Position numbers and translations under genes: made by a program. From Paramarasmius palmivorus (taxonomy: Eukaryota; Basidiomycota; Agaricomycetes; Agaricales; Marasmiaceae): a stretch of DNA of 64,000 bases. The notes beneath the pieces are model-generated. The model made no database searches, was not told where the DNA came from, and worked only from the letters and a program-made list of their open reading frames with translations. The stretch spans positions 124,001-188,000 of the forward strand of contig JAYKXP010000062.1 of NCBI GenBank assembly GCA_037176845.1, read 5' to 3'. The first letter of the stretch is position 1, and each line of letters opens with the position of its first letter. Below, piece by piece: positions 30,963 through 54,596 of the stretch.

Positions 30963-31566
30963 ATGGCCGCTCAGCTCTCTGGTTCCACCTTCCTCAGTCA
31001 CACGGTAGCTACACCACTGCGGCTCTATATTTCTGATTTGGATGTAAGCCCACTTCCCACTGGGTAAATCTGCCTCCGAAGACAACTAAAACCTTCTATT
31101 TTGTGCATTAGGTAGTCTACGTTGGTCAACTCAAGAACCTTCAAAGGCCGTCACCGAGCTCAACAATCATGGGGACAATATTAACCAGGGTTTTGGTGCC
31201 TCGTAAGTACCATGCATACACAACCTCAAATACACAAACTCAGATCCCTGTGCTTTGTTCACCAGACTTGTCTACCTTGTCCCAACGTACACCAACGAGA
31301 ATGATCCCGACAGTGCAGCAACGTCCTTCAAGATCGTCATCCAAGGCTCCCCTGACCCGAAGAGAAAGAATCTGACGGAGGCTACAAGTGGCGATTATCG
31401 CTATATAATCCCTATGCAGGCTGCTTTGGCACCCAAGATTACCGAAGTGCGTCTTCGGAACGGGTCGAGTTTAGAGAATCCTCCGAGCGGATTTAATGGG
31501 ATATCGACGGATATCAACCGTGGAAGGGGAGGTGATTTCTTGGATATCATTTGGAAGTCATTGTAG
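30963..31566 (+). pseudogene. Small beta-rich (DIN-G-GG) protein, copy 1, frameshifted
   Basis: Exon 1 (30963-31043) has a longer leader, then LYISDLD, equivalent to MPYINDFD of copy 2, with the same phase-0 donor. Exon 2 starts VVY at 31112, but then shows two extra nucleotides: the expected STQEPSKAVTELNN continues in another frame. The rest is conserved: NINQGFGASLVYLVPTYT, DSAATSFKIVIQGSPDPKRK, GDYRYIIPMQ and TDINRGRGGDFLDIIWKSL. The second motif of the first half is GAS instead of GG[EK]. Frameshift plus lost glycine suggest a pseudogene; a hidden splice alternative was sought but not found. Confidence 0.55.
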
Positions 31567-32797: not shown

Positions 32798-33326
32798 ATG
32801 CCTTACATCAATGATTTTGACGTATGTGTGCTACTGCGCTGATCACAAGCATTCCTCGCTGACATCCAACAATCCACAGGTATACTACACAAATCAAGAA
32901 GCGCAACAGCCACCCAACGCCATCCCCGAGTTCAACGGCGCCAGCAATGATATCAACAAAGGATTCGGTGGCGAGTAAGTACCATCTCAATCAATTGTGG
33001 TTATAGTTACTGATGCACCGAGCTTCCCTAGATTTGTCTACCTCATTCCCTCGTACACTGACGATGCCAGCAAAGCTGCCACGTCTTTCAAGATTGTGAT
33101 TCAAGGCACTACTGACCCATTAAGGAAGGACATGGCCAAGGGTGCAGGTGGAGATTATCGCTATGTGATTCCTGTTCAGGGTCCACAGGCCAAGGTCACC
33201 GAAGCGCAACTCATCAGGAGTGAGTCAGCCTTGCAGCACCCTCCTAGCGGGTACAGCGGTATCACTTCCGACATCAACAAGGGCAGGCAGGGTGATTTCT
33301 TGTACATAATTTGGAAGACTGCTTGA
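32798..33326 (+). CDS. Small beta-rich DIN-G-GG protein (MABP-like beta-prism?), copy 2
   Basis: Exons 32798-32821, 32880-32974 and 33032-33326 give about 137 aa. MPYINDFD joins to VYYTNQEAQQPPN. Two internal repeats follow: NDINKGFGGEFVYLIPSYT and SDINKGRQGDFLYIIWKTA. The spacing of D-[IL]-N-x-G-x-G-G-x-[FY]-[LIV]-Y-[LI] resembles the MABP/beta-prism signature (DLN.G.GG.YIYL), so a beta-prism fold is inferred, not proven. Between them lie TSFKIVIQG and AGGDYRYVIPVQ. There is no signal peptide or transmembrane helix, so a cytosolic protein is expected. Beta-prism folds bind membranes or carbohydrates in known families; the ligand here is unknown. Confidence 0.7.
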
Positions 33327-33930: not shown

Positions 33931-34463
33931 TTACGCGCTCTTCCAAACGATATACAAATAATCGCCCTTCCTACCCTGATTAATATCAGTCGACAATCCA
34001 TTAAACCCACTCGGAGGATAATCCTGCTTGGATCCACTCCTCAACAACCTCGCCGAAGTGATCTTACGCGCGCCTGGATCCCGCATGGGAATCACGTAGC
34101 GATAATCGCCTCCTGCGCCTTTGGCTAGATCCTTCTTCTCTGGATCGGCGTGGCTCTGAATGACGATTTTGAAAGATGTGGCGGCGTCGTTGGGGTTGTT
34201 GGTGGTGATTGGGGTGAGGTAGACGTATCTATCGGAAGGTGAGTCGAATCCGACTTGGTGCAAGAGGGATGAGGGCACTTACTCGCCATGAAACCCCTTG
34301 TTGATATCGTTGCCGCTGTTGTTGAGGTCAGTGACGGTGTTGGGGGGCTCTTGAGCCGCCTGAGTGGAGTATACAACCTGATGTTGTGAGAGGTTAGAGC
34401 TAAGTGGTAGAGAGAGCATTTAGACGAATGAATGCGTACATCAAAGTTGGCGAGGTAAGTCAT
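33931..34463 (-). CDS. Small beta-rich DIN-G-GG protein, copy 3
   Basis: Exons 34440-34463, 34283-34377 and 33931-34228, with the same 24-nt first exon and 95-nt second exon as copy 2. The protein starts MTYLANFD, VVYSTQAAQEPPNTVTDLNN, then NDINKGFHGEYVYLTPITT, TSFKIVIQSHADPEKKDLAK, GAGGDYRYVIPM and STDINQGRKGDYLYIVWKSA. In the first repeat one Gly of the GG pair is His. It is convergent with copy 2, about 600 bp away, which suggests duplication with inversion. A TATA element sits upstream at 34526-34536 on the minus strand. Confidence 0.7.
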
Positions 34464-35286
34464 TGTGTTAGATAGATGATGAGCTGCGATTTCTGAGACT
34501 GAGGTAGTACAGAGACCTGATTGAACTTTTTATAACGTGTAAAACACCATTTTCTACACGCACCAGAGTCCATTCTTGCGCCCCTAATCGCCTCTGGATC
34601 CTCAAGTCCCTGCAGCATTTAACCCGACATGGTCATATACATACCACTTCTTGAACACGTTGGACCCCAGATCGCACAAGGTTTAGGTTAAAGCCGTTGT
34701 AAGGACAAGCCAATTCAACGCCACAGTGTCCGGCGCTTATTTTCCTCTCTTTCTCCGCAGCGCTTTAAATGACAGGTCATCTAGAGGCACGTCTAGAGGC
34801 CCCTCGATTGGGGCTGGTCCGTACCGCATACCCTTTGAGTAGCTGTAAACCTTCATTCCAATGAGGTATTTGACTCAAGTCCGCTTTGAGTCCCCGGGCA
34901 ATGGTTGTTCAACGTAAACTAAACGGGAAGATCGTTTGCTGACACTCTTTTACGCTTCCTTGACCAAGTTCTAGTCGCGTCTTGAACATTTGATTTCAAG
35001 GACCCGGTCGAGTCCTACTGACCGAGGCCCAATTACTATTATTAGCTGCAACACCTCGATAGCAAGGTCCCCGCACACAGCGCTCACTGACTGTGCGTGT
35101 AATCCTGATCCATTCTGTCTCTTCTTGAATCCAAGTGGCTCAAAGGCACATGCATATCATGTGTACTTGCACTAGAAATCGAAATCAAAACTACGATGTT
35201 ATCCGAACATGGAATTATAAGCGCCGAGGAGCGCTCCAACCTCGGTTCGGGTCAGCAGTACAAAAATAAACGATCACAATTTCAGT
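34464..35286. other. Intergenic, 3' flank of peptide gene C
   Basis: No gene. The part from 35090 to 35286 is the conserved downstream flank that accompanies the peptide genes, including GGAATTATAAGCGCC and an inverted GCGCCGAGGAGCGC motif near 35215-35240. Confidence 0.45.
34526..34536 (-). promoter_or_regulatory. TATA box of beta-rich copy 3
   Basis: Minus-strand GTTATAAAAAG roughly 65-70 nt upstream of the ATG at 34463. Confidence 0.45.
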
Positions 35287-35628
35287 TCAACGTTCACCAT
35301 CAGAAACCTTGATTCCAACAACACAACTCGACCCACGACACGACAAGCACTCTCCTTGAGCACATGCCTCGGGGTTTGGGTTTGGGTTTGGGTTTGGAGC
35401 TGGATAACGTTTTTGGTTCTGGGTATCCAGTTCGTTAATTACCAGCTCGACGAATTAGTACAGACATACCTCAAACGTAGATCTAACAAGGGATGAGCTG
35501 GAATTAAAAGTTATGCATTGGATGAACACGTACATATGTTTGGCTGCAACCGTGACCGCCAGAAGGAAGAAGCTCACTAGGCAGAGGGAACGTATTCTTG
35601 CTACTAGGAATTCCGAATAATTAATCAT
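35287..35628 (-). CDS. Secreted cysteine-rich peptide precursor C
   Basis: Exons 35534-35628, 35470-35482 (13 nt) and 35287-35418 give about 79 aa. The N-terminus has a long hydrophobic signal (LCLVSFFLLAVTVAA). The start used by paralogue D is ATA here, so translation would begin 11 codons upstream at 35628 (MINYSEFLVARIR...). After the signal: ISTFE, NQKR (Kex2-type site), then dipeptides YP-AP-NP-NP-NP-NP-EA, then C-AQGE-C-LS-C-RGSS-C and a VVGIKVSDGER tail. The NP repeat is encoded by telomere-like hexanucleotides. Exon 2 could alternatively be 28 nt, also in frame. Role unknown; secretion and processing are inferred. Confidence 0.7.
35373..35397 (+). repeat. Hexanucleotide repeat (GGGTTT)n inside peptide gene C
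   Basis: About four units that on the coding strand read CCAAAC and encode the Asn-Pro dipeptides. Copy D has only two NP units. Confidence 0.8.
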
Positions 35629-36793
35629 CCATCGTTTTTACCTTTATATATCCCTCGACGCTAGCTAAAGTTAGCTCAAACCTGATCGATTGATATATTG
35701 CACCGCAACGATGATTTCTCGCGTCAAATGATGTCGGTTAGCCAACGAGGTATTGAAAGACGGGAGAGGCCATTCAAAGTTGAAACATTTAATTAGATCG
35801 CATTGGATCCGTGAAATATATCGGGATTCTGGGTCGCAGGGATTAGAGTCAGACAAGAGGAAATGTTCGAGCTACAGCACCCACATCGCATAGATTAATG
35901 GTAAGTCGAATAGCTCAGAGTAATATGAGGCGGACCGTGTACATTCAAACATCTGGAACTCGTCCAAACACTATATGGTCCTATATAGTGGAAATAGTCG
36001 TATAGACCAGATAGCTCACCTGGGCTCTATATATTCGCCTTCTAACTATCAGAGGGAGTGGTGCAACTATCTGCGACTATCGCAGACTATATAGTACGTC
36101 GTGGAACCGATTCAAGCCGGTGGTACGGCATCGATTTCCTCATTTTGCCTTGCTCCGAGCGCCTTGATTGGCCAACAGCTTTTTGCGTCTGCACGCCATG
36201 AAATCGTCCATCCCCTCGATTGCTAGCATTCTCCCAGGCCTTAGTAGCATTCAACGTATCTGATAATTGTATGGAAGTTGTATAATCATTCGTTCAGATT
36301 GTCTACTAAAGGTTATTACAGTATTCAACGTTATTCAACTTCGATCTACTTGATACATATGCTACGACACTATCCGACAACAGGCGGCGCCTTGGGAGTG
36401 GACCTTAAGTGGACGAGGGAAAACGGAGTGCATGTGTGACTCGTACGTCGGGCAGCTTTTATACATACAATAAACTAACAAGGGTACTGCAGGAGAATGT
36501 ACAGAGAACTTTGAAGTACCGACCATAACACCTCTCGGCAAATCGACCGGAGTTACACCTCGTCTATATAGCACTATATAGTCAGATGAATTTCCAACGA
36601 AAACCCAGTCCTGCAATACCTCTGTAATAAGGTGCGCATGTGCTACTATCCAGACTATCGCTCTATCCTGACTATATAGAAAGGGCCGTACTATTTGAGA
36701 AATATCAGGTTCCAGATGAAAGGCTTCACTTCATGAACCAACTTGAATAGCCATCCTAACTACCAGTCTATTTCAGTCATGTTCTCCCTTTAT
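35629..36793. other. Intergenic between peptide genes C and A
   Basis: No gene seen. 35960-36700 contains repeated short palindromes built on CTATATAG (for example near 35970, 36090, 36565 and 36675), of unknown meaning. Confidence 0.4.
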
Positions 36794-37067
36794 TTAACCC
36801 CCCACAGTAATGCAACTTTTATCTGACCTACGACAGGGAGAGCACCCAGAATCTACGCTACAAGGCTCCGGTGCTGGATCAGGATCCCGTTTAGACACCT
36901 TGCGAAGTGTAAAAATGGATGAAATAATGGAGAGCTGACGTTTGACATACCAAGACTCTAGAATCGTGCGTTAGTTCTGCTCCCCTCTGAGCTAACGTGA
37001 CTTACCTTGCTGTGACTTGCAAGAGAAGAAGAGGAAGAATGATCACGACTGCGCGGGATAAAAGCAT
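36794..37067 (-). CDS. Secreted cysteine-rich peptide precursor A
   Basis: Exons 37006-37067 (62 nt), 36951-36957 (7 nt) and 36794-36898 (105 nt) give 57 aa. MLLSRAVVIILPLLLLQVTA is a clear signal peptide. The micro-exon adds RVL, followed by VSKR (Kex2-type site). The dipeptides DP-DP-AP-EP lead directly to C-SVDSG-C-SP-C-RRSDKS-C and a short ITVGG end. Exon lengths, phases and the 5' flank match gene B on the other strand about 5 kb away, which strongly supports the gene although no single ORF reveals it. The four cysteines could form two disulfides. Function unknown; candidates are an antimicrobial, signalling or effector peptide, or a RiPP-like product. Confidence 0.8.
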
Positions 37068-37130
37068 TTGAAGTTCAAAGTTTCGAGTCGGGGGTGCAGC
37101 AATGGGGTTTGTTGCTGCGCTCTGCGGGTG

Positions 37131-37140
37131 ATTTTATATA
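37131..37140 (-). promoter_or_regulatory. TATA box of peptide gene A
   Basis: Minus-strand TATATAAAAT about 65 nt upstream of the ATG. The flanking sequence (AATCACC-GCAGAG-GCAGCAAC) is conserved upstream of gene B. Confidence 0.65.
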
Positions 37141-37472
37141 CAACTGCGTTGCTGAAACTCCCGTACTTTGATCTCGTTGTAAGATGAACTTGATTGCGTC
37201 CAAGTTGTTCGGGTCCGTCACTGATCCCGGTTCTCGATAATAGGCAGTTGGTTAATTAAGCCAAAAAAACACGGACGTAGTTATCTACGACGCACCGACA
37301 GAGTGATAGGTTATGTCTCGCGTTTCTAAGGCTCACTGCTTATTACCTGTTTCTGGGTATTTTATAGTTAGGTTCGTCGAGGTGGTAGATACTAGTATTC
37401 ACTATCCTTAGTCTACATAGGCAGAGGCGAATATCAATTTGTAAACATTGTAAACAACATCCGGGTCGATAC

Positions 37473-37778
37473 TTACTGCAGTTCCTGTAAATAATGACAA
37501 AAATTGCTGCGAAAAACGCGCGCGGCATCCGTCCCAAAAAGGAAATGTCTCTTCGCACGGCTGCAACTGGCATTCAACGTGGTTGTACTTTCCTCGGAAT
37601 ATTCTCTAGTATATGGCTTCAATTGTTATGGTATACATTATGTCTCGTATGGTTCGTCAAGAAAATCTCCTCCAAAGTCGTTTTAGTGTACAGTTCTGGG
37701 TCATTTCCTTTTTGGGACAGATGCCGCGGCAGAAAAATTCACACGTTTTATTGTCATTATTTACAGGAACTGCAGTAA
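37473..37778. mobile_element. MITE-like element, 306 bp
   Basis: Perfect 28-bp terminal inverted repeats starting TTACTGCAGTTCCTGTAAAT at both ends. There is no transposase. The target-site duplication is not evident. It sits immediately left of the helicase-bearing element. Confidence 0.65.
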
Positions 37779-37795
37779 AATAGGCCTGTGACATG

Positions 37796-39484
37796 CCCCT
37801 ACGTGACGCGTAAACTCAGTACGTAGGGGCCTGTACATCTGGGTTTAAATTGGCGGGAGACATTTTAGGGATTTGCCGAAACTCGAAAAGGATTTGAGAA
37901 TCCTTTTTGGGAAGGCTCGTAATACATATGACATGACAGCGTGTAATAATGATGACACACGCGGAAATAAAAAAAGATTCTCTGCCGTCGACCATCGCGT
38001 TGAACCATACTACTTCCACACGACTACAACGACGCGGACGACTCGGAACTTGCGCTGCTCATGGTACAGGTGCAAAAAATCATGAAGATGTCATCAAAGA
38101 CAAGAAAATCCATTATTCCTCCGACTATCCTCACCTCTCTCCACCCTACATGACAACCTTGTGTTGGCCCTCAAAGCAGTCATCATTGGGTATCTCATCA
38201 CGGATGGCCGCGAAATTCCTTGGGAACTACAGGTTGATGCTGTTAGAATGTCGTATGAGAAGGACTCGGCTGTGTTTGCGGGAATTGGTTCAAGGAAGAC
38301 GATCGCACTGTGCATTCCTGAGATGCTTTGTAGGCCAAGGATTTTGGACTGAAAGACACCAATATTGGCCATTAACGGAGAGACAGATAGGACCACGAAG
38401 TTTTGGAAGATGCGTATCATATTCTTTTGCTACATAAATCGTCTAACGTGAATGCAAATTGCAGGAGAATGTATGAGCAAAGGCCGGATTCTCCGAAGCT
38501 ATCGACATTTCTTTGTAACTCCCGAACAACTATTCAAGCTCAAAGAAGGATACTACTCGCGTTTTGGAGTTTCATAGGTCACATTTTTGTTGACGAGGCT
38601 CACTTCATTTACTACCCTGGACACTCGCGCTACCCGCTACCTGCCTTTCGTAACGCCTACGGTGAACTTGCCAATATCAAGCAATGTTCTCCGGTATCTC
38701 ATGGCATGCACTGACAACTACGGCGCCCCCTCAGTACAACCACATCATCGCTGCGGTTCTCAGCCCTCGTCACTCGCTAATCCGGTACACAAGTACTTTA
38801 TCTCGCGTGCAACGTCGTTTCGACTCATGTACTCTGTCATCAACGGAATCCAATGGTGAATCCGTCCTTGTATCGTCTGCATACGAAGGAATTTGCCACG
38901 AGAAGTCCATTTTTTCGAATGTACTGTCGCTTCTGTGGTGGATTGGATGTGGACGATTGCGAATTCAGTTCGGTGGCAGTTTCGGTAACAGACTTCCAGG
39001 GACATTAGGATGTGCTTCATTGCGGGCTCCAGAAGACATGGATGTAGGCGACTCGGAGGAGTGTAGGTAAAACAAGTACTGTAGGCAATGTTTAGAGCCC
39101 TGCGTTGAGGTAGTATTGGACGCACGGACCTCGTAACTTCACTCCAACTTGAAGTGACTACAGCAATCCTATCCGTTCCGAGTCCAATTTCATCCCTCCG
39201 CTTGTCTGTCTTGTTGAAGCTTGAAGTATGGCCAGACATCCTAGTACAGCTTGAGATACGAGGAGAGCGAACCAAGAGCTCACGAAAGCGGCAGATAGAA
39301 AATTTCTTTTATTTCCGCATGTGTCATCATTATTACACGCTGTCATGTCATATGTATTACGAGCCTTCCCAAAAAGGATTCTCAAATCCTTTTCGAGTTT
39401 CGGCAAATCCCTAAAATGTCTCCCGCCAATTTAAACCCAGATGTACAGGTCCCTAGTACATGCTTGTCATCATCACTAGGGATC
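37796..39484. mobile_element. TIR element, about 1.7 kb, with hairpin ends and a RecQ-like relic
   Basis: Near-identical inverted repeats of about 160 bp at 37827-37985 and 39295-39450 (CCTGTACATCTGGGTTTAAA...). Just outside, each end carries a small hairpin (CCCCTACGT...ACGTAGGGG on the left; CCCTAGT...ACTAGGG on the right). The interior holds broken helicase coding sequence. No intact transposase was seen, so it is a non-autonomous or dead element; the superfamily is not determined. Confidence 0.65.
38161..38870 (+). pseudogene. RecQ/DEAH-type helicase relic
   Basis: Fragments in different frames carry helicase landmarks: WELQVDAVRMSYEKDSAVFA then a degenerate Walker A (GIGSRKT) at 38161-38352; VDEAHFIYYPGHSRYPLPAF (motif II, DEAH) and AYGELANIK at 38580-38690; and ALTTTAPPQYNHIIAAVL (motif III-like) near 38705-38760. 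The order matches RecQ-family helicases. Stops and frame changes separate them, so it is not functional. It lies wholly inside the TIR element. Confidence 0.6.
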
Positions 39485-39529
39485 GGTTACAGGTCTAGCA
39501 GTAAAATGGAACATGGCAACTTGCAATTG

Positions 39530-39860
39530 TCCAAAGCACAGCTTCATCTCTAAAATCCAAACTTTTGAGTTACCTGCTGCAATCAGCGCACGGGGTCCTG
39601 TAAATGCGGCTAAATCTTGACGGGCAAGGCTCATATCATGAATTCTAATATTGTGTACGTAGCGCTGAATGGTGCTTATACTGAAAATCGAAATCGAAAT
39701 TGCTAGTATCCGATTGCCGAATATAGAATTATTAGCGCCCGACAGACGCTCAGGGCTAAAGGATTTGAGCTTGATTCCCGCGATTCCTCAGCCAGGAACC
39801 TAAGAGTTCAACGTTCAACGTTCAAAAGCCATAAACACCGACTCCAAACCCTTGGATTAC
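39530..39860 (+). repeat. Duplicated block, copy 1 (partner at 43460-43800)
   Basis: Direct repeat with 43460-43800, clearly alignable from AAACTTTTGAGTTACCTGCT through ATTCTAATATTGTGTACGTA to the ATTATTAGCGCC core. Its far end contains a decayed remnant of the peptide-gene 3' end on the minus strand (AACGTTGAACTCTTAGGTTC). Confidence 0.7.
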
Positions 39861-40167
39861 TTAATCGCCAAGGGACGTTTCGCTTGTGATTGTCAGGTAG
39901 TATCATCAGTCTGGATTCTCGAGACTAAGAAGCCTGGTACATTGTTTCTCTTCTTGCATTCGAGCGGCTCAAAGGCATTGCACTGGAATTGGCAATCGAA
40001 ACTACCATGTTACTTATCCTTTTTTGGGCCTTGGCTTAATCAACCAACTCCCTATTATCGAGAACCAGATGCTATCAAGGGACCCCAACAACGCAATCAA
40101 GTTCACCTTACAACGAGATCTCAGAGTCGCCGAAATCACTATTCAAAGCACGGAAGTTTCAGAAACG

Positions 40168-40173
40168 TAGTCG
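40168..40173 (+). repeat. Target-site duplication, left
   Basis: TAGTCG, identical to 42086-42091 on the other side of the foldback element. Confidence 0.75.
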
Positions 40174-42085
40174 TATGAGTGTTAAAGTGTTCAAAAAATA
40201 AATCAGGTCCCCGGTAATAATTTTTCAGTTCCCCGGTAATAATTTACCTACTTTCATGACATTCCAGTACATTACGCCCCCCGTAAATAACATAGAAATC
40301 CCCCGGTAATAACACTCTTCGACGAAACACCGCCCGGTAATAATCGGCTATTTCGGCAAAGTACTTTCCCACGCACGTGGCCTATGTCGAACACATCTTG
40401 AACATATCCTCAGTGCTCAGGCTTCATGATCTAAGCTGAACTGAGTATTTGATTTGATTTATGATATATTCAAGTACCTAAATATGCAATATCTTGTGTT
40501 TCTGAGGTGTAGAGCATGGCCCATAGCGACGTACTTTTGTGTGACCTACTGAAAGAGACATAAACAAGGCCTTCAGCATCATTAGAAAAGCTGGTTCGCC
40601 TCTTGAACATGACGCAATGGTAAAAGTATTGCATTTTCATTGTTGAGGACGTTGAGTACTGTATGGGAGTGACCGTGGCGCCTCATGAGTACTTGAGTCA
40701 CGATGGGAGTGTTGACCAGAGTTGCCAAATATGGCAAGTTGGGGAAAGTGCTCTTGGTACCTTCGTCAAACTTGCAGGAGTATGGAGTCTCCCGTACAAT
40801 TATACTGACAATTAAAATGGTAGTAGATACCTTTATATCATTAGTTTATGGGAAAATACGAATCAATGCTTGAAGAGTTCAATTGAGCTATTTTCAATTA
40901 GGGTCCAGAAATGATAGACAGCTTGAATTTATCATTGTAACTTGTAGCCTGAAAATAACTCTCGAGAGCTTTAATATGTACAACTATCTAGGTATACTGT
41001 GGTGAGTCGAGACATTAGTGAGGATCAAAACAATGGTAATAACATTACTACATGGCTGCATATAAGGTAATGTACTGAGTAGTGTTGAAATTGCTGTGAG
41101 CCCTGATATGGGCACCTAATTGTGATGCTATGACATTTTCGAGGACTCCATTGACGAGGATCCAACGTTCAATGCTGAATACAAGACTGACAGTCTTGTA
41201 TTCACTGATATTAGATATTAGATATTAGAAACCTATTGTGGACCAACTTGATCAGCGCAGCGGTCGTACTACAGGTAGACAGACAGATAAAGTTGCTAGA
41301 TGCTACGGCTAACTACCCACTGAAGAATGAGATGATGTTGAATGTTGAACAACACCCATTCGCCTAACTAACGACAGTGTCCACGCTCAACATATCAAGA
41401 TCGCCTTCCATCATTACTGAAACTGGCATATGAGGATATTCATACATACTCTATGCCAAGCTCTACACTCTTCATACCGAATTTTGCCTGAGCAGCGACG
41501 CAGTTACTTGAACGCAGCTGAATATGTGTGATAGCGTGCCAAAGCGTGGGAAAGCTCCTATTGAAATGTAGAGCAAATGTCCATTACGACTCATGAGACG
41601 CCACGTTTGATTTCATACTCAACATACTTGATGATGACTCGTCAGAATGTAATAGTCTTAGTGAATCACGTTCAAGAGGCGAGCTGGCTTTCTGAACGAC
41701 ACTGAAATATGTGTGAAAATAAAGTACGTGGCTATGGTCTATAATCTACACATCAGGGACTATTAGATATTGCATATTCAAGTGCTTGGATATATCCTGG
41801 ACCAAATCCTATACTCAGTTGAGTATAGATCATTTTGCCTGAGCACAGAGGATATGTTCAAGATGTGTTCGACATAGGCCACGTGCGTGGGAAAGTACTT
41901 TGCCGAAATAGCCGATTATTACCGGGCGGTGTTTCGTCGAAGAGTGTTATTACCGGGGGATTTCTATGTTATTTACGGGGGGCGTAATGTACTGGAATGT
42001 CATGAAAGTAGGTAAATTATTACCGGGGAACTGAAAAATTATTACCGGGGACCTGATTTATTTTTTGAACACTTTAACACTCATA
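40174..42085. mobile_element. Foldback transposable element, 1,912 bp, no coding capacity
   Basis: The outer about 247 bp of each end are near-identical inverted repeats beginning TATGAGTGTTAAAGTGTTCA. The inner parts of the two halves also pair, less perfectly, almost to the centre, where 41177-41203 is a perfect 13-bp-arm palindrome. The subterminal region repeats CCGGTAATAA several times per arm. Flanking 6-bp TAGTCG duplications mark the insertion. Joining the flanks restores a sequence that aligns with the uninterrupted promoter of peptide gene A, which confirms the boundaries. There are no ORFs of interest, so mobilisation would need a partner elsewhere. Confidence 0.85.
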
Positions 42086-42091
42086 TAGTCG
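42086..42091 (+). repeat. Target-site duplication, right
   Basis: TAGTCG, matching 40168-40173. Confidence 0.75.
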
Positions 42092-42093
42092 TG

Positions 42094-42102
42094 CATAAAA
42101 TC
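42094..42102 (+). promoter_or_regulatory. Degenerate TATA element of peptide gene B
   Basis: CATAAAATC at the position of TATAAAATC in gene A, only a few bases from the right end of the foldback element. Confidence 0.5.
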
Positions 42103-42176
42103 ACCAGCAGAGTGCAGCAACAATCCCATTCCTGACCCCCCAGAAACACTATCGACTCAAACCCTTAAACTTGAAA

Positions 42177-42456
42177 ATGCTTTTGTCCCGCGCAGTCGCG
42201 ATCATACTTCCTATTTTCCTCTTGCAAGTCACAGCAAAGTAAGTCATTTCAGTTCACAGGGGACTCGGAGGAGCACTAACGCATAATTCTAGATTCTTGG
42301 TATGTCAAACGTCAACTCTAGATCATCTCATCCATTTTTACACATCGCAAGGTGTCTAAACGGGTACCTGATCCAGCACCGGAGCCTTGTAGCACTTCTG
42401 GATGCTCTCAGTGTCGTAGGCTAGATGGACGTTGTGTTGTTCAGACGACGGGTTGA
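42177..42456 (+). CDS. Secreted cysteine-rich peptide precursor B
   Basis: Exons 42177-42238 (62 nt), 42293-42299 (7 nt) and 42352-42456 (105 nt) give 56-57 aa with the same exon sizes and phases as gene A. The signal peptide is MLLSRAVAIILPIFLLQVTA. Then KFL, VSKR (Kex2-type), dipeptides VP-DP-AP-EP, and C-STSG-C-SQ-C-RRLDGR-C with a VVQTTG tail. Most differences from A are in the mature part, whereas the signal, site and dipeptides are kept. The upstream promoter is separated from the core by a 1.9-kb transposon, so expression may be altered or lost. Function unknown. Confidence 0.8.
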
Positions 42457-42928
42457 GTCAAGGGAGACTATGACTGAAATGGACTAGTGGTTCCCCAAGT
42501 TTTGATGTCGGAGGATGGCTGTTGTTGGTTCAAGTGTAAAATGAAGCAAAGCCTGTTGAATGGACATGGTCTGCCTCACGTTACTCTGAGCTGTTCGACT
42601 CGTCTTTCAGTGCAATGTGGCTGGTGAGATTCTCCGATTGCTCGAGCATTTCCTTTCGGGCATTCTCTGAGACCCAGAATGGCATACATTCCCCGAGATC
42701 TTTCACGGCTCCAATTCCACTGGTTGCGATGTGATTTAAGTTTCAACTTTGAATGGTCTCTCTCCCGCCTTTCAATACGTCGTTGGCTGACTCGGACATC
42801 ATCGGTCAGAGGTTTTGATGCGAGATATCATCGTCGCGGCATCGATCAGGTTTGAACTAACTTTAGCCACCGTCGAAGAATATATAAAGGTAGAAGTGAG
42901 GAATGATTAATGAAGCCTAACAGCAAGA
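42457..42928. other. Intergenic between peptide genes B and D
   Basis: No ORF or repeat supported. It should hold the promoter of D; a TATATAAAG element lies at 42881-42889, about 45 nt upstream of the ATG. Confidence 0.45.
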
Positions 42929-43224
42929 ATGCGCTTCCATTGCCTGGTGAGCTTCCTCCTTCTGTCGGTCACGGTCATGGCCGGGCATACGTACGTGTTC
43001 ATCCAGGCATATCTTCCAATTCTAACATTTCCCCCAACAGATCCAAGTCTGAGGTATGTCTATGCTCATTGTCCCGGTCCAAGTTGCGTATTAACGAACT
43101 GTAGGCCCAAAAACGTTATCCAGATCCAAACCCAAACCCAGAGGCATGTGCTCAGGGAGAGTGCTTGTCGTGTCGTGGATCAAATTGTGTTGTTGGGATC
43201 AAGGTTACGGATGGTGAACGTTGA
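42929..43224 (+). CDS. Secreted cysteine-rich peptide precursor D
   Basis: Exons 42929-42990 (62 nt), 43041-43053 (13 nt) and 43105-43224 (120 nt) give 64 aa. The signal peptide is MRFHCLVSFLLLSVTVMAG. Then TSKSE, AQKR (Kex2-type), dipeptides YP-DP-NP-NP-EA, and C-AQGE-C-LS-C-RGSN-C followed by VVGIKVTDGER. It is the closest relative of gene C and shares the first-exon length and splice phases of A and B. The ATG is intact here, in contrast to C. The C-terminal tail is longer and charged compared with A and B. Secretion and processing are inferred from the sequence; function unknown. Confidence 0.8.
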
Positions 43225-43459
43225 ACTGTCAGGTTGAATGTGTAGCTGCTCTAGAAATTAAGTCACTGTGATCATTTATTCTTGTATTGTTCTGACCGAG
43301 CGTCTCGTCGAGATGGGAAAGGGTCCCTAAAATGGATATTAGATATTAGAAAACCTGCTGTGGACCGACGCGATTAGCGCAGGGGTGGTACTACATGGTA
43401 CTACTCTCAAAGCTTGAGCTTGATCACCGACTTGTCCGAAGCACAGGTTCCTTATCTTT

Positions 43460-43800
43460 GTTCTTAAACCTAAAGTCTAAACTTTTGAGTTACCTGCTGC
43501 GGACTGTGCCCAATCAGCACACGGGGTCCTGTAAACACGGCTAGAATTTGACGGGCAAGGCTCATATCATGCATTCTAATATTGTGTACGTAGCGCTGAA
43601 TGGTGCTTACACGAAATCGAACTTACTGCTAGTACCATGTTATCCGATTGCCGAATATAGAATTATTAGCGCCGATGAGACGCTCACAGCTAGGGGGTTT
43701 GAATCCCGATTCCTCAGCTCAAACGTTCAAAGTCCACCATCAGGAACCTGAGAGGTCAGCCGACCCCAAACCACGACCTACCCTTGGATTATGCCTCTTC
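43460..43800 (+). repeat. Duplicated block, copy 2 (partner at 39530-39860)
   Basis: See copy 1. The minus-strand end at 43700-43760 (CCTGATGGTGGACTTTGAAC) resembles the 3' end of peptide genes C and D, so the block probably spread with a peptide gene that has since decayed. Confidence 0.7.
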
Positions 43801-44235
43801 GCATTAATCGTATTTTCGGTTGGTCACCAGTGGCTGCTGTAACCAAGGTCCGAAATCCCCAAATTTAGACTCTAGAGCGAATATGAACAAACGAAAACGT
43901 GACGAGCTGCTATTACTGTTTACATCTCATCGACAAGATCATTCAGCCAGCATCCGCGAACTTGTGGATCATACACTCACTCAAGAATTTGATGCGGTTT
44001 CTAAATTCTTCCGTGTGGTACTTCTCTTCCAAAGTCCCCAGTTTGAACTCTGAATTCAAGATGAAAACCTTGGCTATGGGTTTGCATTCCTAAATGTACG
44101 CTTTAGTGCTCTCGTATGTATCATGATGATCAAAGGCGATCGCATCAAGCAAAACAATCGTTATGACATTTAAATTTATCCATTCCCCATCTCCCTAAAC
44201 CTCCCCCGACGACCAAAGAACGCTCTGACTCTAAA
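43801..44235. other. Intergenic
   Basis: Small ORFs only (for example 43883-44053, MNKRKRDELLLLFTSHR...), without splice or family support. Confidence 0.35.
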
Positions 44236-44482
44236 TTAACGCTCCGAGTCCGGAATTGAAACCCCAACAATACAGTGTGATCCACGACAAGATATACACC
44301 CTCTTCCATCACTACCGCATGGGTTGGGAGTGCGCTTCTGGGGCTACGATATGCTCGTCGTTAATATGCTACGCACTTGATTCTCGGAGGAATGAATCTA
44401 CCTCTTTGAAGTTGGGGCTTGAAGGTACTGCTGATGACAGCACAAGTGGAAGGATGAAAATGATGGGACTGAGGAAATGCAT
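44236..44482 (-). CDS. Secreted cysteine-rich peptide precursor E
   Basis: Two exons, 44402-44482 and 44236-44343, around a 58-nt GTAGAT..TCGTAG intron, give 62 aa. MHFLSPIIFILPLVLSSAVP is a signal peptide. Then SSPNFKE, PQKR (Kex2-type site), two dipeptides TP-NP, and C-GSDGRG-C-IS-C-RGSH-C with an IVGVSIPDSER tail that clearly matches the VVGIKV.DGER tail of C and D. Unlike the others it lacks the micro-exon and has the shortest dipeptide run. It is the most diverged member and shows that the family is not just a recent duplicate pair. Confidence 0.75.
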
Positions 44483-46684
44483 TTATGAAGTTGTTTCTGA
44501 CCTTTTGGGCTTTATATATAGATTTCCGAATTCTCAGGTTCTCGCGATGATGCTGTATAATCATGATTGATAGATAGATCTGAAGCTTGATGTGAACCAG
44601 TGCCATTACCAAAACAACACGGGGGATAATACAAAAATTTAACCATCCTGGCCGGGAAGGAATTTGAAATGGTCGGACTCGGACTCGGACTCGCGCGCGC
44701 CAACTACCAAGTGTGTTGAAAATGAGCAAGATCCCCTTGGACAAGGTCGTGCACTGATGATCAAGAAACGGGATGTTCAAGTTTGAGTTTAATTTTAGGT
44801 CTGATATCTGAGTTCCGAGCGGCATCAGGGTTCTTCGCTTAGTGTATATTCTGTCAAGGTCACAAGTCCCGGCAATAGAATTTAGAAACACGCATCTTTG
44901 ATATTGACGGGAATCTTGTTATTGGAGAAGGTCGCAAGTATTTTGCTGTGGAAGTCTGAATTGGATTGCGTATGGTTTTTAATAGGGATAGGGAGTTGGA
45001 TAAGAAGTTGTGGATGATGGCTTAGTTCGGACTAGACTCGGGAGTATGTTTTTGTTTTGTTTGTCGTTAGTTGTGGGGACGTGTTTTTTTGAGTAAACGC
45101 GTTCACGGGAAATCGAAATCGAGCCGATGAGACCAGGTAGCTTGATTCCCAATCCCGGGCCTCAGCTCAACGTCTAAAGTCCACCTTGATTTCAATAACA
45201 CGATGCAGGCAAGCACTTGTTTAGGTTTTAGCCCTCGTTCCTGAAGCACAAACGCCACGGCCTTCTTCGCATTACCGTATTTTGGCTACCCGAAATCAGA
45301 AATCAGAAAACGACACCTGACAAGTTTGATGCGTTTCCTTCGCGTGATGAGGGATGTAGGAAGTTGTGGGTTGTAACTCTTTCCTCCGAGTCCGAGTCTG
45401 CGTGGGATACGACCAACGTGGTTTTTGTTCGTCGTTCTTTTTTGTCGAGCCTCCCAAATCCCGCGCCTAGATGGCGAATTTCCGCGCGGTGCTGATGAAA
45501 CCATAAACTAAACCAAATCCCTAGGACTCTTTGAGTGAATTTGATACCCACAGAATCCAGAAACACCCTGCACCAAAAAGACAGGGTATGCGAGCGGGCC
45601 GGCATGAGATTGGGAACGATACATGGTTTGGAGTTGGAAGGTTGGGTGTTCAAGGAGGCGGGGGTGTGGAGGGGGTGCGATGTGAAGCGCAAGGGAACCA
45701 GAAGGAAGAACGTGGACGGGGGCGGTGTTTGAAAAGCGAGGTTAGTTAGTTGGGAAGGAGAGATTATTTCTATCATGGAAGGCGGGAATTGGAGGCGTGG
45801 AAGTGGAGGGACGAAAAAAAAGAAAAATGTTCGACGTACCAGTTCGAATAAGCTCTTCCTTCCTGCGCTTTAACGACCTACTCGGTGTTTGACATACCCA
45901 TACTATAATGGACGTGGCTATGGAACCCAGGTGCGTGAGGTGGAAGGTGGGTGTGCGTTGATTTGGGTGAAGGAGTGCGTGAGAGAGGGTGCGTTTGCGG
46001 CGAAACGGGAAGGGGTGAGTGGAAGAAAACGGAGGAAACGAGGTGTTTGGGAGTTCGATTTCTGATTGTACAGCCGGTAGACGAACTTCAACGGGAACCG
46101 TCGTCGGTGTATTGAAAAAGGTATTGCCGGAGATTTGGGTAGAAAGCTGAAGCTGAAGGTTTGTTGTCGAAGGGCCTGGGTGTGGGAGAGTGAAAGGACG
46201 AAGTGGGCGGGGAGCGAGTGATATCGATAAAAGCCTGAGATGGAACGATAGCTGCTGTTCATATCAGTAAACTGGCGACTCACCTGGGGAAATAGGCCGT
46301 ACTTGGTGAATACAACCGTGGACCTAGTGCGAGAACGTTAATTGGCAGGCGCTGGGTACACGAGATGTTGTGTTTAGGGTACAGTGTGACTCGAAATCGG
46401 AGCATCGGTGTGTAATGTGTTTGAGATTGAACCTGGACATGAAGAATACCAACGCATGCGACGGAGCGAGTGTGCGGTGAGGTATCTAAGCGGTAGGCGT
46501 AGAGGGATTTGATTTTTGAGGGACGTGAACTGAGAGGTTGACGCGAAGGGAGAGAGAGTTTGTGTGTGGAGAGTGCTTCGGGTTGGGTGTTGAGTGGAAG
46601 AGAGAAAGATGACCTGTGGAAGGGAATGGATGACGTGGCGTGTCGAAAAAGATCAGGAGGTGCGATGTTGTACGTAGAGGAACA
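44483..46684. other. Intergenic, with a peptide-gene relic near 45.12-45.25 kb
   Basis: On the minus strand 45165-45220 reads AAGTGCTTGCCTGCATCGTG ... AAATCAAGG ... GACGTTGAG, a degraded form of the 3' exon of peptide genes C and D with an internal deletion, next to the shared downstream block. The long ORFs at 44361-44891, 45303-45776 and 45918-46283 have no splice or family support and are treated as chance. Confidence 0.4.
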
Positions 46685-51941: not shown

Positions 51942-52472
51942 TCACAACCCCGACCTCCAAATAATATATAAATAATCCCCTCCTCTGCCTTCGTTGATAT
52001 TACTCGTAATACCATCCCATCCCGAAGGCGGATATTGGGTACTAGCTCCACTTCGCAATAATTTCGCTTCGATAACTTTATCTGGGTTATGTGGATCTTG
52101 CATGGGGATTACATATCGATAATCACCACCTGCACCCCAAGCGATATCGTCTCTGTCGTAGTCACGTTCGCTTTGGATGACGATTTTGAAGGAGGTGGCG
52201 GCGACGGAAGGGTCGTCGGTGCACATGGGGACGAGGAAGACGTATCTGAGGCCCGGGGAAGGTGAGATGGAATGCGAGAAAAGGAAGAAGGGAGAAAGGA
52301 GACGTACTTGCCACCGAAACCGTGGTTGATATCGTCGCAGCCACCGTTGATGTCGGTTATAGCGTTCGAAGGCTCTTTGGAGGCTTCTTCGGCGTAGACG
52401 ACCTAGTAGGAGACAACGGTGGGCGTGTAGAGATGATAGTCTTACCTGGAAATCGTAGATGTATCTGGACAT
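51942..52472 (-). CDS. Small beta-rich DIN-G-GG protein, copy 4
   Basis: Exons 52446-52472, 52308-52402 and 51942-52245. Starts MSRYIYDFQ, VVYAEEASKEPSNAITDING, then DDINHGFGGKYVFLVPMCT, TSFKIVIQSERDYDRDD, GAGGDYRYVIPMQDPHNP and SNINEGRGGDYLYIIWRSGL. The second exon is 95 nt as in copies 2 and 3. Both repeats keep the double glycine, so this is the best-preserved copy. It is convergent with the chimeric zinc-finger gene, and eroded pieces of the same pair occur upstream. A TATA element lies at 52514-52523 on the minus strand. Probable cytosolic beta-prism-like protein, ligand unknown. Confidence 0.7.
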   Translation of the reverse strand: MSRYIYDFQVRLSSLHAHRCLLLGRLRRRSLQRAFERYNRHQRWLRRYQPRFRWQVRLLSPFFLFSHSISPSPGLRYVFLVPMCTDDPSVAATSFKIVIQSERDYDRDDIAWGAGGDYRYVIPMQDPHNPDKVIEAKLLRSGASTQYPPSGWDGITSNINEGRGGDYLYIIWRSGL

Positions 52473-53161
52473 TGCGATAGAGGTGATGGATTGGACGAGA
52501 AGGGAATGTTCGTGTTTTTATACCTGTTCAGGGACTCGGGGGTACCGAAATGCTTTTAGCTTACACGTAAAAAGACACTATTCATGTGCCGTCAAAGTCG
52601 GAGCGAAGCGCAAAAATTTACATTTCCGAGACGTTTGTAGTGCGGAGACGAGGATATTCCTGACAGAAGTTTTAATATCACGAAATTGTTATTGTATCAT
52701 AGAGGTCACCTTGTGCAAACGTAGGGTACAAAGTCCAGTGGTTTGTGGCGTTTCTCGGACGCGCACAATGTCCAACCGAGATGAAGGGAGTTGGGGCGGA
52801 TTTTGTGGTTAAAGGTGCTGTGGCGCGTGGTTCTAGAAGGAAAAGAGCGTTTCTGGAGTAGCAGCAGTGATCACTTGATTGTGTCCCGAGGTACCTGAAT
52901 AACCTTGGTATAGGACGCGAGGTGTGGTCAAAGTTATTTGTGAGCGCGAGACGCTCCTTTTGAGATGCTGAAATCATGCCGTCTGCTGCTTTGAGATGCG
53001 CACCTCAAACATGAACCTTTTGGGACAAGGGGTCCGTACCTATTCCGTGACCTTCTGCATCATTAAAAACATGGTGCAAAATTGACATTTACCAAATACG
53101 CTGGCATCTATGGGTTCGCAATTGACAGCAAATATTTGACATACACCTTGTATATAGTGCT
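52473..53161. other. Intergenic
   Basis: Promoter side of beta-rich copy 4 and 3' flank of the reductase gene. No further gene seen. Confidence 0.4.
52514..52523 (-). promoter_or_regulatory. TATA box of beta-rich copy 4
   Basis: Minus-strand GTATAAAAAC about 45 nt upstream of the ATG at 52472. Confidence 0.45.
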
Positions 53162-54596
53162 TCACTGCGAAGGAAGCTGCGGTATACCCAGAGGCTGAGG
53201 ATATGGCATCCTCTGAAAGTTTGCCGCGATCTTCATGAAGAAAAATGTTTCGCTTCCGTCTCCCTGAATTTTGAGTATGACTCTGAGCAAAGAATCGAAA
53301 GCGATATCGGGGCAGGGAACGTACGATGGAATTCATTGGGAACCCAAGATTGAACGGTAGCTGACTTTCCAAGAACTTGATTTGTTCCGCCGACAGAGTG
53401 ATATCCAGCGCCTCGAGGTTTGCTTTCAACTGCTCGATCTTTCTACCACCGATGATTGGGAAGACATAAGTTGTTTTTTGCATGACATATGCAATAGCAA
53501 CTGTTGAGGATATCCGTCAGCACACGCAGATGGGCAATTAATTGTGCTTGACGCACCAGAAGTGATACTCTTCGCGCCAATCTCATTAGCAACCTTCTCT
53601 AGCGCTCTACTCATCTTGATCTCATCTTCGTTCCTCTTCCAATCCGTACCCAGATGAGTCCGGCCCTTCTCACCGGTTTCGGCTCTTCGTTGTTCTTCGG
53701 CATCGGTGCGAAGTTTGCCACCACCAACGACGCTGAAAGGTGCTAACGCCAAGCCGAAGGAGCGAGCCATTGGGATGATGTCTCGTTCAAAGGAGCGTTC
53801 CATGACGTTCCATCTCCCTTGATAGATGACGAATGGGGTTTTGCCGTAGGCTTTTGCGTACGTGTTGGCTTGGGCTACGACCCAGGCGGGGGCGTCTGAG
53901 ATACCCTGATAAAGCGGTGTTAGTTCGAGTTCAAGGGGCGAAGTTAAGGGCATACGAGGTAAAGGACTTTGCGACTCAAGACCAAGGTGTGTAGCGCGTC
54001 CATGATCTCTTCGATGGAGGTATCATAGTCCCAAAAGTGTACGTAGAGGATATCGATGTAGGAAGTACGCAGTTTCTTCAAGCTCGCTTCTACGCTGAGG
54101 TGTAGACTCTTTGCGTTGTTGCCTGTGTAGTTGACCTTTTGGATGATGGTAGGGTCGCTCTTCTTGTAGAGCAAGCTATACTGAAAACCGGTCCATCGAT
54201 CATAGGAACACATCGGTGTGGGGAACGCAACTCACCTTGGTAGCGATGATCAGCTGATCCCTAATACCTCTCTTCTCCGCCCATTCCCCGATAAACTCCT
54301 CGGACGACTCTTCTTGACTTTTATCACAGCGTAAGTTCGACATCATGAAATAGAGAGGGGAAAGAAACCTACTAGGCATTGGCAGTATCGATGAAATTAC
54401 CACCCATGTCAAAATACGCATCTAGTAGCTCGAAACTGGACTCTTTGTTCATGGCTCCTCTGACATCACCCCATTGGTCGCCAATACTCGCACCCCCAAG
54501 AGCAAACGGCGAGACGTGCACGCCAGCGTGAGGCGAAAGAACGCGATAGATACCAAGCTTGGTAGGTGGTGCAGGTGCAGGTGCGAACGAAGACAT
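53162..54596 (-). CDS. Aldo-keto reductase, aryl-alcohol dehydrogenase type
   Basis: Six exons: 54373-54596, 54236-54317, 53956-54180, 53557-53905, 53325-53500 and 53162-53263. The AKR tetrad is visible: Asp in [13 protein letters not shown], Tyr in the same segment (its codon is split by intron 1), Lys in LIIATK and His in [30 protein letters not shown] and [20 protein letters not shown] follow, and the NADPH-binding end contains [19 protein letters not shown]. The C-terminus ([14 protein letters not shown] ... [13 protein letters not shown]) is the typical AAD/norsolorinic-acid-reductase-like ending. These cytosolic NADP(H) enzymes interconvert aryl aldehydes and alcohols, relevant to lignin or secondary metabolism in fungi. 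No other pathway gene is adjacent. Confidence 0.9.

Follow-up and report, generated by a model that had tools for sequence, protein, structure and literature searches.

Maturation by Kex2 and Ste13 is established for the alpha-pheromones of ascomycetes, whose precursors hold between one and 16 cores according to the account of them in PMC6339444. The same signature in mushroom precursors has been presented in the literature as surprising and without explanation, given that the mating peptides of basidiomycetes are lipidated and of the a-type (passages on these precursors in PMC9769878 and PMC6339444), and the authors of PMC9769878 themselves call such precursors in basidiomycetes surprising. 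In the parts of PMC9769878 concerned with processing, Pleurotus peptides are derived from precursors with runs of XP/XA that are called likely STE13-processed, and the XA/XP run was removed from a Coprinopsis precursor when this was produced in Pichia pastoris. Here we describe five small genes, A to E, of the agaricomycete Paramarasmius palmivorus, which lie within 64,000 nucleotides of contig JAYKXP010000062.1 (positions 124,001 to 188,000; this whole stretch is called the window, and its own numbering is used below). Each gene is predicted to encode a secreted precursor with a single four-cysteine core, preceded by a run of X-Pro/X-Ala dipeptides in exact two-residue register.

The contig sequence accommodates all five gene models with intact frames, and their nine introns are all GT-AG and 48-58 nt long, in agreement with a sequence-only reading that had placed a five-gene family here. 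We consider A to E confirmed as real, related precursor genes, with predicted junctions that rest on the sequence and on comparison of the paralogues. Gene A (minus strand) consists of exon 1 with the predicted signal peptide (37006-37067), a 7-nt micro-exon within the pro-segment (36951-36957), which has the same length and phase as that of B, and exon 3 (36794-36898, stop included), which encodes VSKR, four X-Pro dipeptides, and the core CSVDSGCSPCRRSDKSCITVGG (36797-36862). Gene B (plus strand) has the same exon lengths of 62, 7, and 105 nt, with exon 1 and its predicted signal peptide at 42177-42238, the micro-exon at 42293-42299, and exon 3 with its stop at 42352-42456, encoding VSKR, four X-Pro dipeptides, and the core CSTSGCSQCRRLDGRCVVQTTG (42388-42453). 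Gene C (minus strand; 95, 13, and 132 nt) comprises exon 1 (35534-35628), a 13-nt micro-exon (35470-35482), and exon 3 with its stop (35287-35418), in which NQKR is followed by seven X-Pro/X-Ala dipeptides and the core CAQGECLSCRGSSCVVGIKVSDGER (35290-35364). In the C/D alignment the start codon of D is ATA in C, which can begin at an in-frame upstream ATG (35628) with an N-terminal extension; an alternative acceptor, read by eye, would lengthen the micro-exon of C to 28 nt with the frame kept. Gene D (plus strand; 62, 13, and 120 nt) comprises exon 1 with the predicted signal peptide (42929-42990), a 13-nt micro-exon (43041-43053), and exon 3 with its stop (43105-43224), encoding AQKR, five X-Pro/X-Ala dipeptides, and the core CAQGECLSCRGSNCVVGIKVTDGER (43147-43221). 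Gene E (minus strand) has only two exons of 81 and 108 nt: exon 1 (44402-44482), with the predicted signal peptide and the pro-segment, and exon 2 with its stop (44236-44343), which encodes PQKR, two X-Pro dipeptides, and the core CGSDGRGCISCRGSHCIVGVSIPDSER (44239-44319). The first intron is absent from E, and judging from phase its exon 1 matches exon 1 plus the micro-exon of A to D, so that the coding split around 7- or 13-nt exons, which the sequence-only reading had proposed for the whole family, holds for A to D but not for E. Because both micro-exon lengths are a multiple of three plus one base, the last exon always begins in phase 0.

The products of A to E are 57, 57, 79, 64, and 62 residues long and share one layout, namely a hydrophobic N-terminus, a short pro-segment, one KR, a dipeptide run, and a single four-cysteine core. 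The N-termini, whose best 12-residue hydropathy lies between 2.57 and 2.96 in all five, were taken as predicted signal peptides with hydropathy as the sole measure. KR stands at residue 26, 26, 39, 28, and 30, respectively, and is followed directly by 4, 4, 7, 5, and 2 X-Pro/X-Ala dipeptides; all 22 dipeptides of these runs, which extend up to the first cysteine, have Pro or Ala as their second residue. The spacers accordingly measure 8, 8, 14, 10, and 4 residues, all even and of four different lengths, and the difference between C and D is 12 nt, or two whole dipeptides; A to E are homologous, so these counts are not independent of each other. The cores of 22, 22, 25, 25, and 27 residues each begin with cysteine and contain four cysteines in the pattern C-x(4-6)-C-x2-C-R-[RG]-...-C. 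These shared features (signal peptide as judged by hydropathy, Lys-Arg, X-Pro dipeptides, cysteine pattern) had been recognized from the letters alone and recur in all five products, whereas the exact two-residue register from KR to the first cysteine is a feature added here. When the window was scanned in six frames, the full motif [KR]R-(X[P/A])>=2-C-x3-7-C-x2-C-x3-7-C was found five times, exactly at A to E, and in none of 60 random windows (first-order Markov); the shorter motif [KR]R-(X[P/A])>=2-C also returned just A to E, the random windows averaging 0.48 hits and never exceeding 2. Because the pattern was composed after the genes had been seen, these counts are a check against chance and not a test of discovery.

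The exact dipeptide register over spacers of four lengths points to cleavage by Kex2 and trimming by a Ste13-type dipeptidyl aminopeptidase, and we consider it probable that A to E are matured in this way. Each gene would then encode a prepro-peptide giving one secreted, disulfide-bonded peptide of 22-27 residues. Signal peptidase would take off the N-terminus, Kex2 would cleave after the sole KR, and a type II membrane dipeptidyl aminopeptidase of the Ste13 type would strip the X-Pro/X-Ala dipeptides, two residues per step, up to the first cysteine. Trimming would halt there in A, B, and E, where Cys-Ser or Cys-Gly comes next, a dipeptide with neither Pro nor Ala at its end. Each core would form two disulfides, and the mature peptides would act outside the cell. 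Melittin-like venom precursors offer a parallel, in that their X-Pro/X-Ala pro-segment is trimmed by dipeptidyl peptidase IV (DPP-IV), as proposed for A to E; they differ in being of animal origin, in giving a linear helical peptide, and in lacking a Kex2 site immediately ahead of the run.

Candidate enzymes for this route are present in the genome, and we count them in its favor; all genome-wide family counts given here (P_proprotein, DPPIV_N, S9, STE3, and UstYa) are lower bounds. Kexin-type P_proprotein matches number at least two; those found lie on a single contig (C58:161228-161398 and 276112-276282), separated by about 115 kb. A GTSAAAP motif is present upstream of each, and in one case there is a DDG motif still further upstream. 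Among the matches listed there is one DPPIV_N gene (C144:64.4-71.6 kb), whose exon 1 reads as a cytosolic tail and then a single transmembrane segment, that is, a type II topology as judged by eye. S9 matches number at least 13 in the genome, and the one at C144:71456-71617 carries the GWSYGG serine motif.

Genes C and A (35.3-37.1 kb) and genes B and D (42.1-43.2 kb) form an inverted duplication. In a self-comparison of the window, the arm with C and A (35283-37145, minus strand) pairs with the arm with B and D (42087-43228, plus strand) over two segments, 35283-35948 with 42556-43228 at 72% identity and 36758-37145 with 42087-42492 at 78%. The last exons of C and D share 92% identity, as against 72-73% for their introns (Fisher p = 0.0004). 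The proportions of changed non-synonymous (pN) and synonymous (pS) sites after KR are 0.037 and 0.243 (p = 0.005), and those in the core are 0.035 and 0.283 (p = 0.007); these tests rest on small counts, with two gaps placed by hand. Judging from these substitution patterns, the predicted cores of C and D are under purifying selection, and the closer likeness of the last exons than of the introns, together with the low pN after KR, is independent evidence that the sequence is coding.

Several observations weigh against a family of functional, Ste13-trimmed peptides. Purifying selection was not seen in the core of A vs. B (pN 0.317, pS 0.255; p = 0.76), and the start codon of D is no longer present in C. 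The Cys-Ala that follows the spacer in C and D would not alone stop the dipeptidyl aminopeptidase, so one more trimming step is possible there, which would leave an N-terminal Gln; a disulfide on the first cysteine might block this extra cut. An Arg-Arg pair within the cores of A and B is a possible Kex2 site, at which the core could be split unless its fold protects it. The structure model of the last exon of D is weak (predicted local distance difference test, pLDDT, 60.5; predicted template modeling score, pTM, 0.24) and uninformative on disulfides. The DPPIV_N gene spans about 7 kb, and its S9 match at C144:66748-66921 lies 4.5 kb from the next one at C144:71456-71617, so that the gene may not be intact in this strain; the gap, in which no repeats of 40 bases or more were found, may be an insertion, a long intron, or an assembly effect. 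Finally, protein-database searches with the five-precursor profile and with the D precursor turned up no relative from another species.

The two pairs of genes appear to have followed different courses. The last exon of A and B is not more conserved than their introns (p = 0.36), and their cores are far more divergent than those of C and D, the fraction of changed non-synonymous core sites differing between the pairs (p = 0.0001). The introns of A and B are if anything less diverged (85 of 100 aligned positions identical vs. 69 of 95 for C and D; p = 0.04), which fits poorly with a single duplication of a two-gene unit, unless conversion has taken place. The divergence of the A/B cores fits diversification and relaxed constraint equally well. 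The cysteines have been retained in A and B all the same, and fast divergence with the cysteines kept leans toward defense or antagonism or an effector, while conservation in C and D leans toward a fixed target. Our guess is that the A/B type acts in antagonism or like an effector and that the C/D type has a fixed target outside the cell, perhaps in signaling, although we would place no reading of the role as high as an even chance. The predicted cores are neutral or weakly cationic, with net charges of +1, +2, 0, 0, and 0 for A to E, which speaks against a classical cationic antimicrobial peptide.

The dipeptide run could also be explained without Ste13-type trimming, if A to E encoded Kex2-processed effectors or antimicrobial peptides, small and secreted, whose X-Pro run served only as a proline-rich linker or pro-segment and stayed on the mature peptide. 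The cysteine-rich core, the lack of relatives in the two protein-database searches, the fast divergence of A and B, and the inverted-repeat elements at the locus (see below) agree with this, and effectors with a Kex2-processed pro-domain are an established class, as set out in the relevant part of PMC8528282. As in the K2PP effectors described there, the precursors are predicted to be secreted and have a pro-segment ending at a Kex2 site, which lies in the first half of all five products; A to E differ in their very short mature part and in the X-Pro run after the Kex2 site. A linker, however, does not need an exact register to the first cysteine, as seen here in five precursors with four spacer lengths, the core charges are not those of typical cationic peptides, and the C/D cores are under apparent purifying selection; we therefore think a retained run unlikely. 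Decay is a less probable explanation still. If A to E were decaying or non-functional duplicates, their similarity would reflect nothing but the shared descent of recent copies, and the changed start codon of C, the possible remnants nearby, and the lack of detectable constraint in A and B would fit. This is improbable in view of the constraint on C and D after KR (p = 0.005), the five intact frames, the conserved splice sites, the coding indels of whole codons, and the presence of E, a third and more distant member with the same register.

Signals resembling alpha-pheromones, in mating or in communication, are suggested by the KR-(XP/XA)n-core arrangement, which is that of ascomycete alpha-pheromone precursors, some with as few as one core (PMC6339444, in its treatment of these precursors), by the conserved C/D core, and by the precedent of such precursors published as unexplained in basidiomycetes (corresponding passages of PMC6339444 and PMC9769878). 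Against this, A to E have four cysteines, compared with none or two in the examples compared from these sources, belong to a basidiomycete, and include the fast-diverging pair A/B. The listed STE3 matches (at least 36, counted exon-wise) lie on contigs C22, C64, and C100, and the contig with the peptide genes is not among them; STE2 gave no match in the genome, but control genomes gave no match either, so that its absence is unproven. A mating-pheromone reading is not supported, and we hold pheromone-like signals in general to be rather unlikely, slightly more so than a retained linker. The sequence-only reading had also allowed for a role like that of a ribosomally synthesized and post-translationally modified peptide (RiPP), and precursors modified by UstYa-type enzymes would agree with the Kex2-cut precursors common to dikaritins and with the UstYa genes of this genome (at least 36 matches). 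None of the 36 UstYa matches listed is on the peptide-gene contig, though, each precursor has one core with four cysteines, and no tailoring enzyme was recognized by Pfam among 30 of the 35 open reading frames (ORFs) of at least 150 aa in the window; we regard such a role as highly improbable.

Returning to maturation by Kex2 and Ste13-type trimming, A to E share their processing signature with the KEX2-processed repeat proteins (KEPs) of Agaricomycetes that carry a STE13 signature and belong to the same class of organisms (PMC9769878, as far as its description of these KEPs goes). KEPs have repeated cores, whereas each of A to E has one KR and one cysteine-rich core; the Kex2 site and the hydrophobic N-terminus of KEPs are thus found here without the repeats. 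A screen with a minimum of three repeats, as used in PMC6339444, could not have returned precursors like A to E, and neither "cystein" nor "disulfide" appears anywhere in the main text of PMC9769878. Because alpha-pheromone precursors, which likewise have a signal peptide, KR, X-Ala/X-Pro dipeptides, and a short secreted peptide (e.g., MFalpha1), can hold one core, a single core is not new as such; the distinguishing point of A to E is that each has four cysteines in its one core, and has them in an agaricomycete. Should cysteine-rich precursors of this single-core kind exist, the Kex2/Ste13 route is more widely used than the published repeat-based count suggests, and such a class would have escaped both gene prediction, owing to the micro-exons, and repeat-based screens. 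We offer, as a speculation of low probability, a class of single-core disulfide-rich mushroom peptides matured in the style of alpha-pheromones, with C/D as a fixed signal and A/B diversifying, in non-mating communication or rivalry. The predicted mature N-terminus is exact for each peptide, with one alternative in C and D, and even X-Pro/X-Ala spacing between KR and Cys in raw frames provides a simple scan of other genomes that needs no gene models.

The family matched nothing in the databases, consistent with its not having been recognized from sequence. Pfam at E up to 10 matched none of the five precursors, and the five-sequence profile matched no PDB chain at E up to 10. Against the protein database the five-precursor profile drew 273 candidates, none at E up to 10, with at most 100 words sampled and the five sequences therefore partly covered, while for the D precursor no candidate shared three 5-residue words. 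Searches of the genome itself with the last exons of A, B, D, and E matched only the five loci; since queries with D or E missed A and B and vice versa, their reach is limited, and the genome could hold further paralogues of greater divergence. The database does contain proteins of this genome, among them VNI00_012889 (33934-34392) and VNI00_012892 (51945-52417), yet the family is unmatched there, so the five genes are likely unannotated, as the sequence-only reading had expected. Provided that locus tags are numbered in order on the contig, the stretch from 34.4 to 51.9 kb, in which all five genes are found, has room for no more than two annotated genes.

Those two database proteins belong to a small family with four copies in the window, at 31126-31560 (plus), 32859-33323 (plus), 33934-34392 (minus), and 51945-52417 (minus). 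The copy neighboring the peptide genes matches VNI00_012889 of P. palmivorus (99% over 86% of the query). The two database entries are about 140 aa long, and the family has relatives in Pluteus, Elaphomyces, Aspergillus, and others (13 proteins). Pfam matched none of the four copies, and about 40 positions of the family profile align with the PDB protein Mpf2Ba1 (E 1.5e-10); we presume a beta-prism (MABP-like) fold. Among the 30 of 35 ORFs submitted to Pfam, an aldo/keto reductase gene (53040-54022, minus) was matched above the cut-off in two ORFs and the other matches stayed below curated cut-offs; no gene beside the cluster hinted at a role.

Two stretches near the genes may be decayed last exons of the C/D type, both on the minus strand. 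That at 43727-43797 scored 37 with C (maximum 34 in 200 shuffles) and 30 with D (maximum 28), and that at 45167-45217 scored 36 with D (maximum 28) and 32 with C (maximum 30). Both stretches scored above all 200 mononucleotide shuffles, though by a small margin at 43.7 kb; they are two of three stretches picked by eye, with 30 comparisons made, and are tentative for that reason. The third stretch (39780-39920) was rejected, as 3 of 200 shuffles reached its score with C on either strand. Between the arms of the gene duplication there are three pairs of inverted arms, at 37473-37778 (81%), within 37819-39459 (37819-37987 with 39289-39459, 95%), and within 40174-42085 (40174-40537 with 41721-42085, 92%), and they look like inverted-repeat mobile elements. 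A direct repeat (39550-39792 and 43470-43718, 79%) flanks the 40-42 kb element together with the B/D arm.

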